Source: an uncultured Bacteroidales bacterium (lineage in GTDB: Bacteria > Bacteroidota > Bacteroidia > Bacteroidales > UBA4417). From it: a stretch of 64,000 nt of DNA. Position numbers and translations under genes: made by a program. The notes under the pieces are model-generated. The model was not told the DNA's origin and did no database searches. It saw only the letters and a list, made by a program, of their open reading frames with translations. The stretch's first letter is position 1, and each line of letters starts with the position of its first letter. Positions 3,529 to 47,670 of the stretch are shown one piece after another. The stretch is from assembly GCA_903879715.1 (NCBI GenBank), contig CAIRMR010000209.1, positions 1-64,000 of the forward strand. The letters are read 5' to 3'.

Positions 3529-3834
3529 GTCGGAAGTCGGAAGTCGGGAGTCGGAAGTGTTTCAACCGACATAAATCTTCGTTTCGTTTAAGTTTTTTAT
3601 TCATTTATTTTGTGATAGGCTTTTATGGAAGTGATTTGTCGGAAGTCGGGAGTCGGAAGTCGGAAGGGTTTCAACCGATATAAATCTTCGTTCCGTTTAA
3701 GTTTTTTATTCATTGATCTTGTGATAGGCTTTTATGGAAGTGATTTGTCGGAAGTCAGAAGTCGGGAGTCGGAAGGGTTTCAACCGATATAAATCTTCGT
3801 TCCGTTTAAGTTTTTTATTCATTGATCTTGTGAT
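3529..3834. repeat. 109-bp tandem repeat, about 2.8 copies
   Basis: Units begin at 3529, 3638 and 3747, an exact 109-bp period. Each unit has a GTCGGAAGTCGGGAGTCGG block, then TTTCAACCGAYATAAATCTTCG and an AT-rich tail ending TTGTGATAGGC. The units differ by a few substitutions and by rearrangement of the heptamer block. The array sits between ilvC and the second ilvN, inside the operon. Confidence 0.9.
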
Positions 3835-3884
3835 TTTTATTCTTTTGAATTTATTCCATTTTATTAGCTTTTCAAAGATTCCAG

Positions 3885-4055
3885 TTTCGGTCTTCCGTCT
3901 TCGGACTCCCAGCTTCCGACTTCCGACTTCCGTCTTCCAGCTTCTTACTTCCGTCTTCTGTCTTCCGACTTCCGTCTTCCGACTTCCGACTTCCGACTTC
4001 CAGCTTCTTACTTCCGTCTTCCGATTTCCGTCTTCCGACTTCCAACCCCTTTTCC
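3885..4055. repeat. Heptamer array CTTCCGN / complement of GTCGGAAG
   Basis: About 170 bp of loosely tandem 7-bp units (CTTCCGA, CTTCCGT, CTTCCAG). This is the reverse complement of the heptamers that begin each 109-bp unit at 3529-3834, so the gap can fold into a long imperfect hairpin. The same words recur at 31904-32043, 44018-44040, 53972-54030 and 54128-54320. Open frames through it are repeat translations and were not called as genes. Confidence 0.85.
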
Positions 4056-4065
4056 CAACCCCTTC

Positions 4066-4635
4066 TCAATTCGCCTTTCTCAGTTTCCTCCTTGTCTCAA
4101 CTCTCTCCAGCAGTTCATCCCTTTCTTTTAGAAATTCCGATAATTTTTCAATCGGCGAACGGGTCAAAGCAATCCTTCCTGAACGGATAAACTGCAACAC
4201 TCCAAACTTGTTCAGTCCCTGGAAAAGATCCTGGGTTTCTTCTTTATGACCGGTTTTTTCGATAACGGTGTATTCAGGGGTAATTTCCAGAATCCGGGCG
4301 TTGTGACTCCGGATGAGTTTCTCAATGTCATCGCTTTCCATCAACGACTTTGTAAGTACTTTATACAAAGCTATTTCCTGGTAAATCATTTCCTCGTTGG
4401 TATGATAAAAGGCTTTAAGAACATCCACAATTTTATCAATCTGTTTTACAATGTTTTTGACTTTCTCTTCTTCTTCGTTGATAACAATTGTGATCTTATG
4501 AATTCCGGGCAGTGCTGATTCAGAGCCCGTGAGGCTTTCGATATTTACTTGCCGGCGGGTGAGTATTATAGTAATGCGGTTGGTCAAACCGATATGGTTC
4601 TCGCTGTAAGTAGTGATTATAAATTCTTTTTTCAT
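4066..4635 (-). CDS. ilvN: Acetolactate synthase regulatory (small) subunit, second copy
   Basis: A 189-residue protein with an N-terminal ACT domain (about residues 4-75, beginning EFIITTYSENHIGLTNRI) and the second ALS small-subunit domain (about 85-160, with NARILEITPEYTVIEKTGH). It would bind valine and modulate IlvB. Start taken at 4635 (MKKEFIITTYS), which aligns with the paralogue; 19 more codons are open upstream but have no family counterpart. By my count about four residues in five match the upstream copy, so this is a tandem duplication. The main differences are at the C-terminal tail (RRKLRKAN), in the ACT loop (NEEEEKVKN) and in the mid-region VLTKS. Twenty-five bases separate the two genes. 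Confidence 0.9.
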   Translation of the reverse strand: MKKEFIITTYSENHIGLTNRITIILTRRQVNIESLTGSESALPGIHKITIVINEEEEKVKNIVKQIDKIVDVLKAFYHTNEEMIYQEIALYKVLTKSLMESDDIEKLIRSHNARILEITPEYTVIEKTGHKEETQDLFQGLNKFGVLQFIRSGRIALTRSPIEKLSEFLKERDELLERVETRRKLRKAN

Positions 4636-4660
4636 TTCAATCGTCTTCAAAAACCAGTTG

Positions 4661-5227
4661 TTACACCTTGGCAATTTTGCCTTTGGATTCAATTTTTGCC
4701 AGCAGCGCGTCTCTTTCTTTCAGGAATTCCGAAAGTTTTTCGATAGGCGAACGGGTAATTGCTATTCTGCCTGAGCGTATAAACTGCAGTACACCAAACG
4801 GATTTAATCCGTTGAATAATTCCTGGGTTTCTTCCTTATGCCCTGTTTTTTCGATAACCGTGTACTCCGGTGTGATTTCAAGTATCCTGGCATTGTGCTT
4901 GCGGATAAGTTTTTCAATCTGGTCGCTCTCCATAAGTGGCGCTGTAGGCACTTTATACAAGGCAATTTCCTGGAAGATCATTTCCTCGTTAGTATGGTAA
5001 AACGCCTTGAGGACTTCAATCTGCTTGTCGATCTGCTTAACGATATTGCTGACTTTATCCCTGGTTTCGTTTACTACTATGGTAAATTTCGAAATGCCTT
5101 TCAGCGCAGATTCAGAAACAGTAAGGCTCTCGATGTTTACTTTGCGACGGGTAAATATGATTGTAATGCGGTTCAGCAAACCGATATGGTTTTCGCTGTA
5201 TGCGGATATGATATATTCTTGTTTCAT
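4661..5227 (-). CDS. ilvN: Acetolactate synthase regulatory (small) subunit, first copy
   Basis: A 188-residue ALS small subunit following ilvB. It has an ACT domain at about 4-75 (EYIISAYSENHIGLLNRI), the conserved AFYHTNEEMI segment, and a C-terminal domain with NARILEITPEYTVIEKTGHKEET. It should activate IlvB and confer feedback inhibition by branched-chain amino acids. The gene lies 195 bp downstream of ilvB, the gap being partly a hexamer repeat, and 25 bp upstream of its tandem paralogue at 4066-4635. Confidence 0.93.
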   Translation of the reverse strand: MKQEYIISAYSENHIGLLNRITIIFTRRKVNIESLTVSESALKGISKFTIVVNETRDKVSNIVKQIDKQIEVLKAFYHTNEEMIFQEIALYKVPTAPLMESDQIEKLIRKHNARILEITPEYTVIEKTGHKEETQELFNGLNPFGVLQFIRSGRIAITRSPIEKLSEFLKERDALLAKIESKGKIAKV

Positions 5228-15781: not shown

Positions 15782-15885
15782 TTCATGTGTTATTATTTAT
15801 TTTTTACGGGTCACATGGAACTCCATGACAAAATAATATCATCCGCCTGTGAGTCAAAATTGGCTGATTTTGTCATGTTCGTTTC
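15782..15885. repeat. Double-hairpin dispersed repeat, copy 1
   Basis: First hairpin CATGTG...CACATG (15784-15816), second hairpin CATGACAAAAT / ATTTTGTCATG (15824-15834 and 15866-15876), an 11-bp perfect stem. A nearly identical copy is at 47092-47216, and partial relatives lie at 37235-37380 and 47226-47332. There is no ORF. It fills most of the 327-bp gap between ygfK and the PLP enzyme gene. Confidence 0.85.
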
Positions 15886-36639: not shown

Positions 36640-37234
36640 TAAATTATAATATAAAAATTGATGGAGTATGTGGGATTGAAGGAGTTAAAATTCGATTTTG
36701 CCGGTGTTTTAGTCGGAGTGCGACTTTGAGTAGTTTACAAATTCAGCAACGATTTCTTTTGAAATTACATTACCTGAATTTTGAAATACACGATTCCAAT
36801 TTTGAAATTACATGACTTCAATTTTGAAAATGCATGAAATATTTTAAGACTTCTACCTCTAATTCATGACTTAACAAGTTATGTCAGCCATAAAAAAAAC
36901 CTATAATTTTTTACTTGAAGGGGCAACAACCTGAAATCCCCATCTGCTTTTTATGTAAATGGGACTTTGAATTGAAAAGATTATTTGGCTTTACTATAAA
37001 TCTAGCACAATAAACTGTAAGATTCTACTTGTAATTGAAGTTCTAAAGAAAAAAAGAAATAAAAATGTTTCACATCGGCAAACACCAGATTATTCAAAAT
37101 TCAGAACATTTGATTGCTGAGTAAACAAAAAAAATCAGATTCTTTCTAATTGTTGTAATACCTTTTTCAAACTATCATTTTCAACAATTCAGGAAGTTAA
37201 TAACAAACATGCAATCACAGATAGAACAATACAA
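36640..37234. other. Intergenic region, no gene recognised
   Basis: About 600 bp of AT-rich sequence. It has repeated TTTTGAAAWWCAYGA words at 36779-36840 (AATTTTGAAATACACGA, AATTTTGAAATTACATGA, AATTTTGAAAATGCATGA) and a short hairpin AGTCG...CGACT at 36711-36727. No convincing ORF, tRNA or riboswitch was seen. Confidence 0.4.
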
Positions 37235-37380
37235 CTTTCCATGTGTCTCTTTTTTAATTTTTACGGGTCACATGGAATTATTAACGTCTTGCTTATTTTT
37301 AAAGGTGTTAATGAGCTAAAGGTTCGCCATGAATAATCATCCCTCTGTATGGCAATTTATTGTCATGGCTCGTTTCATTT
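37235..37380. repeat. Partial copy of the double-hairpin dispersed repeat
   Basis: CCATGTG...TTTTTACGGGTCACATGG (37238-37275) and a second hairpin around GCCATGAATA...TTGTCATGGC (37328-37373) match the layout at 15782-15885. It ends at the stop codon of the membrane thioredoxin-like gene. Confidence 0.7.
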
Positions 37381-37383
37381 AAA

Positions 37384-38271
37384 TTAGTTTTTTAGTAATT
37401 CATTAATCAGTTTAACCCGTTCGTCAAAATATTTATCCGAAGCGCCCATCTGAAATCCCCAATACGTTGATACGATTTCGCCTTTTTTGTTTAAAACTAT
37501 ATCAACTGGCATGGACGTAATCCCTAATTCTTTTCTCAATTTTAAATCCTTATCAATATAGGTTTTAATCGTGACTTTATATTTTGCGAGGAATGCGGGT
37601 AATTCATTCATTGAATGGTCAACATCGCAATACACGCCTATAATCTCAACATCATTACGGTTGCTAAAGGCAGATTTTAATTTTTCGAGTGTCGGAAACT
37701 TCGCACGACAGGGCCGACAATTCATAAAATAGAAATCCAGTAACACCACTTTGCCATTGAAACGGCTTTGCTCAATGGTATCGCCGCTTTGGGTTCGTAG
37801 CAGGGAATAGTTCACTTGTTTTAGTTTCGGAACAAAAATATCAGCCTGATCTTTGTATTCACTTTTTGGAATAAATACCAGGTTTATATAAAGAAGTATT
37901 GGTATGCTCAGGGTTAAGGCAGCATAAAAACCCTTGTTCCGTACTAACACATTAAATCCAAGATAAAAGCCAACGATTTTAAGCAATGTATTCACCGGAA
38001 AAATTTCAGGGAAATTGAGGTGGTTTACATAACCACCCATTGAGTCCAGGAGAATCGCTTCAATGAGAAATAAAAATGCTATAAGATTTGATAGTGTTTT
38101 TGTTCTGCTCTTTATCAGGCACAATACTAATCCCGATAAAAAATAAATCCCGAATGATATGAGATTCCCGACTCGTAAATCCGATTTTCCAAAAACGATG
38201 TAATTATGAAGAGCATAAATGCCAAAACCTGATAAAATAACAAGTAAAATGGGAATTATTTTTTTTTTCAC
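37384..38271 (-). CDS. Membrane-anchored TlpA/thioredoxin-like protein
   Basis: A 295-residue protein. The first ~135 residues form four or five hydrophobic segments, and residues 150-295 are a thioredoxin-like fold with the active site CRPC (YFMNCRPCRAKFP, about 182-194), preceded by GKVVLLDFYF. The cis-Pro motif SMPVDIVLN follows. It would act on the periplasmic side as a disulfide reductase or oxidase. It starts with GTG, 48 bp after the fulvocin C-related gene, and is probably co-transcribed with it. The neighbour is Cys-rich, so a role in forming or editing its disulfides is a reasonable inference. Confidence 0.82.
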   Translation of the reverse strand: MKKKIIPILLVILSGFGIYALHNYIVFGKSDLRVGNLISFGIYFLSGLVLCLIKSRTKTLSNLIAFLFLIEAILLDSMGGYVNHLNFPEIFPVNTLLKIVGFYLGFNVLVRNKGFYAALTLSIPILLYINLVFIPKSEYKDQADIFVPKLKQVNYSLLRTQSGDTIEQSRFNGKVVLLDFYFMNCRPCRAKFPTLEKLKSAFSNRNDVEIIGVYCDVDHSMNELPAFLAKYKVTIKTYIDKDLKLRKELGITSMPVDIVLNKKGEIVSTYWGFQMGASDKYFDERVKLINELLKN

Positions 38272-38319
38272 CAGTAAAATATTAAGTGTTTATAGTCTTA
38301 GAAGAAAACAATATGTTCA

Positions 38320-38940
38320 TTACACTGCAAGCGAGCATCTCCCATCACAAACATACCACATCATAAATCCACAATCACGAACCTCATGACAAATTGCATT
38401 TGTATCGCAAGAATTACAGCTAAATGCGCTTGTGCTGCAACAATTACAGTTCTTCACGCCAGGATCAACATACGAAGGAGATATAGAAGAAGACTTGGCA
38501 ATATTATTTTTTGAGTTGAAACTGTTTATACTAAAGGCAATTTTTATAATTTCTTCTTTAGTAAAATAATTTAATCCTTCGATACACCAGTTTTTGGCGA
38601 AGGAAGTAAAAGATTTAGAGTCTTTATTAGAATCTTCAAATGTACTGATATTTATAAATGTATTTAATTTTTCTATATGATTGCGCTGTTCATCAGTAAG
38701 TGTATCGGATTTTATAAGTGCTGTAAACCTTTGTTTCCATAAGGTTGTTTTTTCTGCAGGAGATAAAAGATTATAAGCTAGTCGCTGATCGCTTTGGGAG
38801 GATAACTGTATAACTTCGTTTATTAGTTTTAAATTCACAGTATTATTGTTTGATGTTAAATCAACATTTGTTTCTTTTTCACATTGTGTGAAGGCGAAAA
38901 GCATTAAAATGCATGTCAAAAGTGCGAATTTCATTTTCAT
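38320..38940 (-). CDS. Fulvocin C-related Cys-rich lipoprotein (bacteriocin-like)
   Basis: A 206-residue protein. Residues 1-20 are a lipoprotein-type signal (ALLTCILMLFAFTQC, lipid Cys at 20), residues 21-155 are a helical, low-Cys region, and the last ~43 residues hold nine Cys. That tail (NCNCCSTSAFSCNSC...RDCGFMMWYVCDGRC) follows the pattern of fulvocin C, the disulfide-rich Myxococcus bacteriocin (NCSCSTASDYC...GCGTGWVYCAC), and of the Bacteroidetes fulvocin C-related family. Start set at ATG 38940. A longer frame begins inside the promoter's -7 box. It is preceded by three LytTR-like repeats and a consensus promoter, and followed by a membrane thioredoxin-like gene. Killing activity is not established. 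Confidence 0.75.
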   Translation of the reverse strand: MKMKFALLTCILMLFAFTQCEKETNVDLTSNNNTVNLKLINEVIQLSSQSDQRLAYNLLSPAEKTTLWKQRFTALIKSDTLTDEQRNHIEKLNTFINISTFEDSNKDSKSFTSFAKNWCIEGLNYFTKEEIIKIAFSINSFNSKNNIAKSSSISPSYVDPGVKNCNCCSTSAFSCNSCDTNAICHEVRDCGFMMWYVCDGRCSLAV

Positions 38941-38972
38941 AACAGAAAGTTTTTCAGGTGAATGTTTTTCAG

Positions 38973-39002
38973 CAAATATATAGTGCATTATTTAATTGTC
39001 AA
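38973..39002 (-). promoter_or_regulatory. Promoter of the fulvocin C-related operon
   Basis: TTG at 39002-39000, exactly 19 bp, TATATTTG at 38980-38973: a full match to the Bacteroidetes consensus and to the ilv and trp promoters here. Transcription would begin near 38966 and the ATG is at 38940. Confidence 0.8.
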
Positions 39003-39021
39003 CAAATTCTAATGCAAAAAA

Positions 39022-39072
39022 GCTAACTCCGGCGTTTTAGAAGCTAACTCCATTGTTCTGGCAGTTAACTCC
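39022..39072 (-). promoter_or_regulatory. Three 21-bp-spaced direct repeats, candidate LytTR binding sites
   Basis: On the minus strand GGAGTTAAC (39072-39064), GGAGTTAGC (39051-39043) and GGAGTTAGC (39030-39022) recur with an exact 21-bp period; a weaker fourth unit lies near 39085-39093. LytTR regulators bind direct 9-bp boxes with a GTT core separated by about 12 bp, that is a 21-bp period. The nearest unit is about 20 bp upstream of the -33 element, a place suited to activation. Confidence 0.75.
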
Positions 39073-39118
39073 GCTGTTACTGTGGTTATCCTTATTTTAA
39101 ATCTCCTTAATTTGTTCA

Positions 39119-39505
39119 TTATTCCCTTTGTTGATTTGCATATATTGGGGGGGGGGGGGGTAACATACTGTTTATTAGCTTATTAAATTTAACTTTCCTG
39201 TAACAAGCTACATTTACAGATAAATTGTTTGTTAATTCAATGATGCATGTCTTGTGGTTGTATTTTTTAACATGTCGAAGATTTATTAATCTTGCGGTGT
39301 GGCATCGATAGAAATGCATCTCTGATAAATAGGATTCTAGTTCAGTTAAAGTATGATAAACCCTGAATATAAGTCCCTCTACAAGTTGAGCGTTTACCTT
39401 GCTGTTTTCAATAAAAAAATAAATGATGTCAGATGATTCAATAAGTTCAAGGCCGAATTTGGTTTTGAGGGGAATACGGAACTGCTTCGCTATTATAATA
39501 TCCAT
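39119..39505 (-). CDS. LytTR-domain-only DNA-binding regulator
   Basis: A 128-residue protein that is essentially one LytTR domain (about residues 12-112). It has ESSDIIYFFIENSKV at the first strands, the signature FYRCHTARLINLRHVKKY near 63-80, and CYRKVKFNKLI at the end. There is no receiver or membrane part. Its last residues before the stop include a Pro run made by 14 consecutive C on the coding strand (39147-39160). It lies directly upstream of a promoter with three LytTR-type repeats, so it is the likely regulator of the fulvocin C-related operon. The input signal is unknown. Confidence 0.85.
   Translation of the reverse strand: MDIIIAKQFRIPLKTKFGLELIESSDIIYFFIENSKVNAQLVEGLIFRVYHTLTELESYLSEMHFYRCHTARLINLRHVKKYNHKTCIIELTNNLSVNVACYRKVKFNKLINSMLPPPPPIYANQQRE
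39147..39160. repeat. Homopolymer of 14 G within the LytTR gene
   Basis: A run of 14 G (C on the coding strand) codes for the Pro run at the LytTR C-terminus. The tract has a length that makes slipped-strand change likely. It may equally carry a sequencing or assembly length error. Confidence 0.95.
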
Positions 39506-47216: not shown

Positions 47217-47670
47217 TGATCTGTATATTTTTTAATTTTTTACGGGTCAGATGGAAGTATTAACAGCTTGCTTATTTTTACGGGTGTTAATGAGATCGCT
47301 TCGCTAGTTATTAACGTCTTAATTGATTTCAAAGGTGTTAATGAAATCGCTATGTTATTCGCTTCGCTTCCCGCAAAAAGCGGGACAAGCTATGAGACCG
47401 CTATGTTATTCGCTTCGCTCATGAGATCGCTTCGCTAAGTTCGCTAAGTTCGCCAGGTTACTCATGTATTGCTTATTTTTAAAGGGGCTCACTTCGGCCG
47501 GCTCAGTGCATCGCATGAGTCGCTGCGCTTAGTTTTTTTTTGATCAAAAAGTACGAGAACAAATATATCCTATCCGATTTTAACGAGCACAATCTATGCC
47601 TTTTTAAAATTCCATAAATCCCGATTTGTTTCCAGCACATCAAAATATTATGTAACAAAAACTTGCCTTT
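47217..47670. other. Repeat-rich intergenic region upstream of the trp leader
   Basis: A partial copy of the double-hairpin family (47226-47332: TTTTTACGGGTCAGATGGAA, TATTAACAGCTTGCTTATTTTTA, GGTGTTAATGAG) is followed by reiterated ATCGCTTCGCT / GCTATGTTATTCGCTTCGCT words (47285-47460). No ORF was supported. Confidence 0.6.

Follow-up and report, generated by a model that had tools for sequence, protein, structure and literature searches.

A putative LytTR-switched cassette for a fulvocin-related, disulfide-rich lipoprotein and a membrane oxidoreductase in an uncultured Bacteroidales bacterium

Three neighbouring genes of an uncultured Bacteroidales bacterium encode a LytTR-only regulator, a lipoprotein with a Cys-rich C-terminus and a polytopic TlpA-like protein (pTlpA). 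Do they form a switchable system for an exported, disulfide-rich peptide, and is that peptide a weapon? We addressed this question in the 64,000-nt stretch of DNA that was analysed (the window) and in related loci of other genomes. The initial annotation had described three ORFs in a row, and the ORF list of the window places all three there as consecutive genes on the minus strand. The features of the locus are:

39119–39505, minus strand: LytTR-only transcription regulator gene, 128 aa, without a receiver domain (PF04397, E 4.7e-13)
39147–39160, no strand: 14-base G:C homopolymer at the 3' end of the LytTR gene, the longest homopolymer of the window and a candidate phase-variable tract
39063–39072, minus strand: putative LytTR operator repeat 1, GGAGTTAACT (repeat scan)
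39042–39051, minus strand: putative LytTR operator repeat 2, GGAGTTAGCT, 21 bp from repeat 1 (repeat scan)
39021–39030, minus strand: putative LytTR operator repeat 3, GGAGTTAGCT, 21 bp from repeat 2 (repeat scan)
38973–39002, minus strand: inferred Bacteroidota-type promoter of the lipoprotein gene, TTG-N19-TATATTTG (consensus match)
38320–38940, minus strand: fulvocin_rel lipoprotein gene, 206 aa, with a signal peptide, a lipobox-like site at Cys20, a helical carrier and a nine-Cys C-terminal domain (NF033852; alignment)
38323–38451, minus strand: disulfide-rich C-terminal domain of the lipoprotein, residues 164–206 (eight canonical Cys invariant, 21 copies)
37384–38271, minus strand: polytopic ResA/TlpA-like thiol-disulfide oxidoreductase gene, 295 aa, five predicted helices, CRPC at residues 185–188 (PF00578, E 4.8e-13)
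37135–37378, minus strand: DUF1573 lipoprotein pseudogene with an internal deletion of ~318 bp and a 134-bp insertion (37239–37372), by comparison with the intact gene of a sister species

The window lipoprotein is a member of NCBIfam family NF033852 (fulvocin_rel), scoring 90.8 bits over profile positions 1–150 of 150 against a curated cut-off of 35 bits. Its last 43 residues hold nine Cys, eight canonical and one extra beside C2. In an alignment of 14 members (window included) the only invariant residues are eight Cys and one Gly, and all eight canonical Cys are kept in 21 of 21 copies checked. These copies share a C-x-C ... C-x7-C-x3-C frame in which C6-x7-C7 and, apart from one copy with a C7–C8 spacing of 4, C7-x3-C8 are fixed and the remaining loops vary. 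Such invariance in relatives argues that the Cys framework is not a product of chance, and together with the family model it backs the fulvocin C-related domain that had been proposed. The lipoprotein ORF has a second in-frame ATG at 38988; because this codon falls inside the inferred promoter, the 206-residue start (ATG 38940) is likelier. Bacteroidota members with a complete N-terminus carry a lipobox-like Cys. The surface anchoring that the initial annotation drew from the lipobox is thus plausible in this phylum but does not extend to the Gemmatimonadota relatives, which lack a lipobox.

Fulvocin C of Myxococcus fulvus was reportedly sequenced in 1981, and the mature peptide has 45 residues. 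Fulvocin C and NF033852 share with the window protein a small C-terminal domain with eight Cys in a C-x-C ... CG-x6-C-x3-C arrangement; the window differs in its predicted 206-residue, lipid-anchored precursor, its ninth Cys, its LytTR switch and its polytopic oxidoreductase. BLAST of the window Cys domain or whole protein against fulvocin C gave no match, and the fulvocin C sequence aligned with relatives, reaching 42 bits to L027; the comparison serves as a lead only. The Cys domains of this family are mostly acidic or neutral, in contrast to many cationic bacteriocins. We found no paper in the open-access literature that describes the genetics of the fulvocin family. A Pfam Rubicon-homology match lay below its cut-off and was attributed to chance from Cys content; the best PDB profile matches of the lipoprotein, to designed helical repeats and unrelated proteins, were likewise taken as chance. 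Its AlphaFold model (mean pLDDT 47, about 30 in the Cys domain) was too weak for a fold search.

Family-model searches of whole genomes found fulvocin_rel in 2 of 60 relatives, with none in 15 congeners. The family model also detected it in 8 of 393 genomes of the host's own order, 1 of 129 in the order of G345, 4 of 395 across the phylum, 13 of 397 of one Flavobacteriaceae-like family and 13 of 395 Gemmatimonadota. Its occurrence is sporadic, at about 1–3% of genomes in most samples. A related-locus search with the window lipoprotein as query, and a plasmid search with one relative as query, returned no match. The full family alignment was too divergent to yield search patterns; a narrower alignment led to three loci, among them an informative Gemmatimonadota contig. 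PADLOC run on the three window proteins gave nothing relevant. Variants of the gene were also encountered. The fulvocin_rel carrier is joined to a different C-terminal Cys pattern at L036 and L037 (G503, three related copies) and at L038 (G663, a single copy). Carrier-only paralogues without a Cys domain occur at L056 (6529–6975), L060 (3189–3623) and L061 (6469–6915); one of them adjoins a full-length gene, and at L061 the adjacent gene is shortened to the carrier and a final CDGIC.

Comparison with congeners indicates that the cassette is accessory. The ileS gene of congener G003 is 98% identical to that of the window, and at the site between the amylase gene and ileS an intact DUF1573 gene accompanies a pTlpA gene (90% identical); the DNA that runs from the start of LytTR through the stop of the lipoprotein is missing. 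At the corresponding site of G005, free of the cassette, the amylase gene adjoins ileS. The GC content of the cassette is 32–35%, versus 43–44% in its neighbours. The DUF1573 lipoprotein, overlooked in the initial annotation, emerged as a third conserved partner that is a pseudogene in the window, where its deletion of about 318 bp is shared with G009 and its 134-bp insertion is a repeat with further copies in the window. Taken with the site comparison, the pseudogene suggests that the three-gene cassette is a remodelled form of the lipoprotein-pTlpA-DUF1573 set of Flavobacteriaceae-like genomes. The inserted element (37239–37372) starts with a CCATGTG...CACATGG hairpin and has partial copies at 47219–47344 and 15784–15820. 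Gene content upstream of ileS varies in almost every congener examined (L065–L075).

The LytTR regulator is a stand-alone protein in which PF04397 is the only domain. Upstream of the lipoprotein gene, the minus strand reads GGAGTTAACT-N11-GGAGTTAGCT-N11-GGAGTTAGCT from 39072 to 39021, that is, three perfect 10-bp repeats (consensus GGAGTTARCT) with 11-bp spacers and a period of 21 bp. Downstream of the repeats lies TTG-N19-TATATTTG (39002 to 38973), followed by the ATG at 38940; the Bacteroidota promoter consensus is TTG / TAnnTTTG. Even when three mismatches are allowed, the expected number of paired repeats in the window is 0.01; a search of the 6.07-Mb genome that tolerated up to two mismatches found the pair at this site alone. 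LytTR sites consist of repeats of 9–11 bp separated by 11–13 bp (PMC4847170), triple LytTR repeats are known (PMC11347149), and LytTR regulatory systems of Streptococcus mutans switch on bacteriocin genes through such repeats (PMC6193735). Since its spacing matches published sites (PMC4847170, PMC6193735), the triple repeat fits a LytTR operator. The operator-promoter architecture provides strong sequence evidence for LytTR control, and we infer that LytTR binds here. The link from regulator to peptide, a guess in the initial annotation, thereby gains a specific site. A CTTCCG heptad array with a 21-bp period (3880–4060) was a candidate for a second operator that we discarded as simple-repeat DNA; a long intergenic array of CTTCCG(A/T/G) heptad-like simple repeats spans 3640–4060 of the window.

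The closest likeness is to the HdrRM and BrsRM systems of Streptococcus mutans (PMC6193735), which also pair a stand-alone LytTR protein lacking a receiver with direct repeats upstream of a promoter, in their case two repeats of 9–10 bp with an 11–12 bp spacer rather than the three of the window. The window departs from them in two further ways. Upstream of the LytTR gene itself, where autoactivation would act, we found no repeat, the paired repeat lying only downstream of that gene and before the lipoprotein; directly after the LytTR gene no dedicated membrane inhibitor gene was found, the next genes being those for the lipoprotein and then pTlpA, the only polytopic protein. The regulator is peculiar to this locus. 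Among 19 Bacteroidota fulvocin_rel loci LytTR is present solely in the window, so that a conserved three-gene order finds no support, LytTR being absent from all 18 others, and the repeat array is absent upstream of 19 other loci scanned.

pTlpA contains a ResA/TlpA-type thioredoxin domain, as judged by PF00578, PF13905, a ResA profile and similarity to the PDB entries of ResA and TlpA. It has the CxxC thioredoxin-fold domain in common with ResA, TlpA and StoA oxidoreductases and differs from them in the fusion of this domain to a five-helix membrane part, for which no family match was found. An odd number of predicted helices precedes the thioredoxin domain (at low model confidence), which would leave the CRPC motif facing the periplasm; the AlphaFold model (pLDDT 45) was too weak for a fold search, and only helix counts were taken from the models.

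A polytopic TlpA-like gene adjoins the eight-Cys lipoprotein gene at 13 of 19 Bacteroidota loci, which agrees with the earlier proposal that the peptide has its own oxidoreductase. Four of the 19 loci have neither this TlpA nor DUF1573; at one of these, an ABC transporter and two further TlpA genes lie nearby. In 199 Flavobacteriaceae-like genomes, all polytopic TlpA proteins with E<1e-70 (7 genes, 6 genomes) adjoin the lipoprotein and the next-best, at 5e-33, is located elsewhere; since linked copies were the source of the profile, what this comparison can tell is just that unlinked high scorers are absent. The window pTlpA, not used in building the profile, scores 68 bits, versus 94–98 for generic polytopic TlpA proteins, and falls outside the main lipoprotein-linked clade in the tree. 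A single pTlpA clade exclusive to the lipoprotein was rejected, being true of the main Flavobacteriaceae-like clade and failing for the window protein. From this placement, the lipoprotein seems to have been partnered with various polytopic TlpA proteins. Between the window and G003, dN/dS is 0.25 for pTlpA and 0.07 for its thioredoxin domain, indicating purifying selection. Since pTlpA is constrained even though G003 lacks the lipoprotein, it may protect, or may have another role besides lipoprotein maturation.

A DUF1573 lipoprotein with a CxC motif is encoded at 7 of the 19 Bacteroidota eight-Cys loci. Elsewhere, DUF1573 proteins occur as UGC selenoproteins (PMC9312934; PMC13188914), and by this analogy the CGC/CxC motif is plausibly redox-active here. 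We found no open-access paper that treats DUF1573 together with bacteriocins. Other neighbours include ABC transporter genes beside several relatives, of a kind used for export or self-protection. The Gemmatimonadota loci L127, L128, L131 and L046 have a beta-propeller-like gene, not TlpA or DUF1573, beside the fulvocin_rel gene, and L128 and L131 have an ABC ATPase and permease as well. No immunity protein had been obvious initially, and no clear immunity gene came to light at the locus; candidates for this function are the membrane part of pTlpA, the carrier-only paralogues of L056, L060 and L061, and the ABC transporters of some relatives.

Carrier and Cys domain diverge at different rates in Gemmatimonadota. 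In 21 of 21 pairs among seven members, three of them copies in one genome (on a 4.47-Mb contig), carriers are 43–95% identical versus 15–41% for the Cys domains with Cys excluded. At L046, an exact 525-bp repeat (848–1372 and 4506–5030) covers the promoter and carrier of two fulvocin_rel genes; the identity stops just before the Cys domain and the DNA beyond is unrelated, with the caveat of an assembly from short reads. A conserved carrier with a diverging Cys domain in Gemmatimonadota suggests antagonism. Among close Bacteroidota pairs, the carrier is more conserved in one, and in another the order is reversed, the Cys domain being better conserved than the carrier.

Simple repeats near gene starts are a second feature suggestive of antagonism. 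At four Bacteroidota loci, the lipoprotein start has a repeat of the phase-variation type no more than 350 bp away; none occurs elsewhere in the 282 kb of the 19 loci or in 78 kb of control loci, a contrast that is only indicative because the thresholds were chosen after some tracts had been seen. The four tracts are (AACA)17 in G508, (GTT)9, T14 and the C14 within the window LytTR gene; one Gemmatimonadota member has C17 at the gene start. In G508 (L030, 260–330), (AACA)17 directly follows the start codon, the 17 units of the assembly corresponding to OFF, whereas 16 or 19 would give an in-frame gene; at L059 (6631), a short AAAC run follows the ATG of a second fulvocin_rel gene, which is out of frame. 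These start-codon runs are candidate translational ON/OFF switches, and expression across the wider family also appears to be phase-variable through gene-start simple repeats. Slippage in the 14-base tract of the window would give LytTR products of 128, 136 or 165 aa, with the LytTR domain kept and the C-terminal tail alone changed.

On balance we somewhat favour reading the locus as an accessory cassette that can be switched and that supplies a fulvocin-type effector, exported and rich in disulfides, together with dedicated disulfide machinery. The LytTR protein would bind the three 21-bp-spaced repeats and activate the promoter for the lipoprotein and pTlpA genes. On sequence evidence the lipoprotein is exported, lipid-anchored through Cys20 and made up of the helical carrier and the eight-Cys C-terminal domain; the periplasmic CRPC thioredoxin domain of pTlpA would form or isomerise its four disulfides; in many relatives, linkage and motifs suggest that the CxC-bearing DUF1573 lipoprotein assists in disulfide handling. 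We hypothesise that, once folded, the Cys domain has an antibacterial effect on neighbouring cells, exerted by contact or after cleavage in the linker. The effector reading is favoured by sporadic occurrence, presence or absence at one site, low GC, divergence of the Cys domain and gene-start repeats. It is weakened by the lack of a BLAST match to fulvocin C and of a clear immunity gene, by a LytTR partner that is not conserved, by a pTlpA that is kept without the lipoprotein and lies outside the main clade in the window, by acidic or neutral domains and by the reversed Bacteroidota pair.

Lipid anchoring raises the less probable alternative of a contact-dependent toxin like SitA, held in the outer membrane and reaching neighbours by membrane contact or vesicles, with the carrier as escort and the Cys domain as effector. 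The polymorphic SitA lipoprotein toxins likewise combine a lipoprotein carrier with a diversified C-terminal module (PMC5562445, PMC8546572), and the same carrier/effector logic in myxobacterial SitA (PMC8546572) matches both the lipobox-like Cys of the complete Bacteroidota members and the conserved carrier with its polymorphic module. SitA effectors, however, are nucleases with adjacent SitI immunity genes, whereas here a Cys knot of 43–70 residues is accompanied by redox partners; neither a nuclease domain nor an adjacent dedicated immunity gene was found at the window locus, and the lipobox is missing in Gemmatimonadota.

An equally improbable explanation dispenses with killing: the protein could be a periplasmic or surface redox or sensor lipoprotein, its Cys domain maintained by pTlpA and DUF1573 for a function such as metal binding or oxidant sensing. 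Rarity, presence/absence, low GC, carrier-only paralogues, phase-variation tracts and loops that are hypervariable around a constant Cys frame are what antagonism or surface antigens typically show, not housekeeping redox, even if two redox-type partners, the retention of pTlpA (under constraint) and DUF1573 without the lipoprotein, and mostly acidic domains would suit such a role. Least likely is a phase-variable module serving as surface antigen or adhesin, which grazing, phage or immune-like selection would keep variable and which would have no part in killing, since the relation to a known bacteriocin family and the export- or self-protection-type ABC transporter genes beside several relatives oppose what gene-start repeats, a hypervariable Cys domain and lipoprotein anchoring would otherwise offer it.

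The effector reading makes the cassette look like a little-studied bacterial weapon. Within the fulvocin-related kind, its regulatory signature is unusually clear and its redox neighbourhood is conserved. More tentatively, the family could represent a class of its own in Bacteroidota and Gemmatimonadota: antibacterial effectors that are phase-variable, carried on a lipoprotein and built around a disulfide knot, with a conserved helical carrier and a polymorphic eight-Cys domain whose maturation would depend on a dedicated membrane TlpA and on a DUF1573 protein with CxC, and with a LytTR switch in the window. The analysis defines a testable module of carrier and variable Cys domain, membrane oxidoreductase, CxC DUF1573 partner and switching by LytTR or repeat slippage. 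It names a specific promoter and operator for testing, offers disulfide handling as a concrete hypothesis for DUF1573, and draws attention to diversified disulfide peptide families in two phyla with few characterised bacteriocins.
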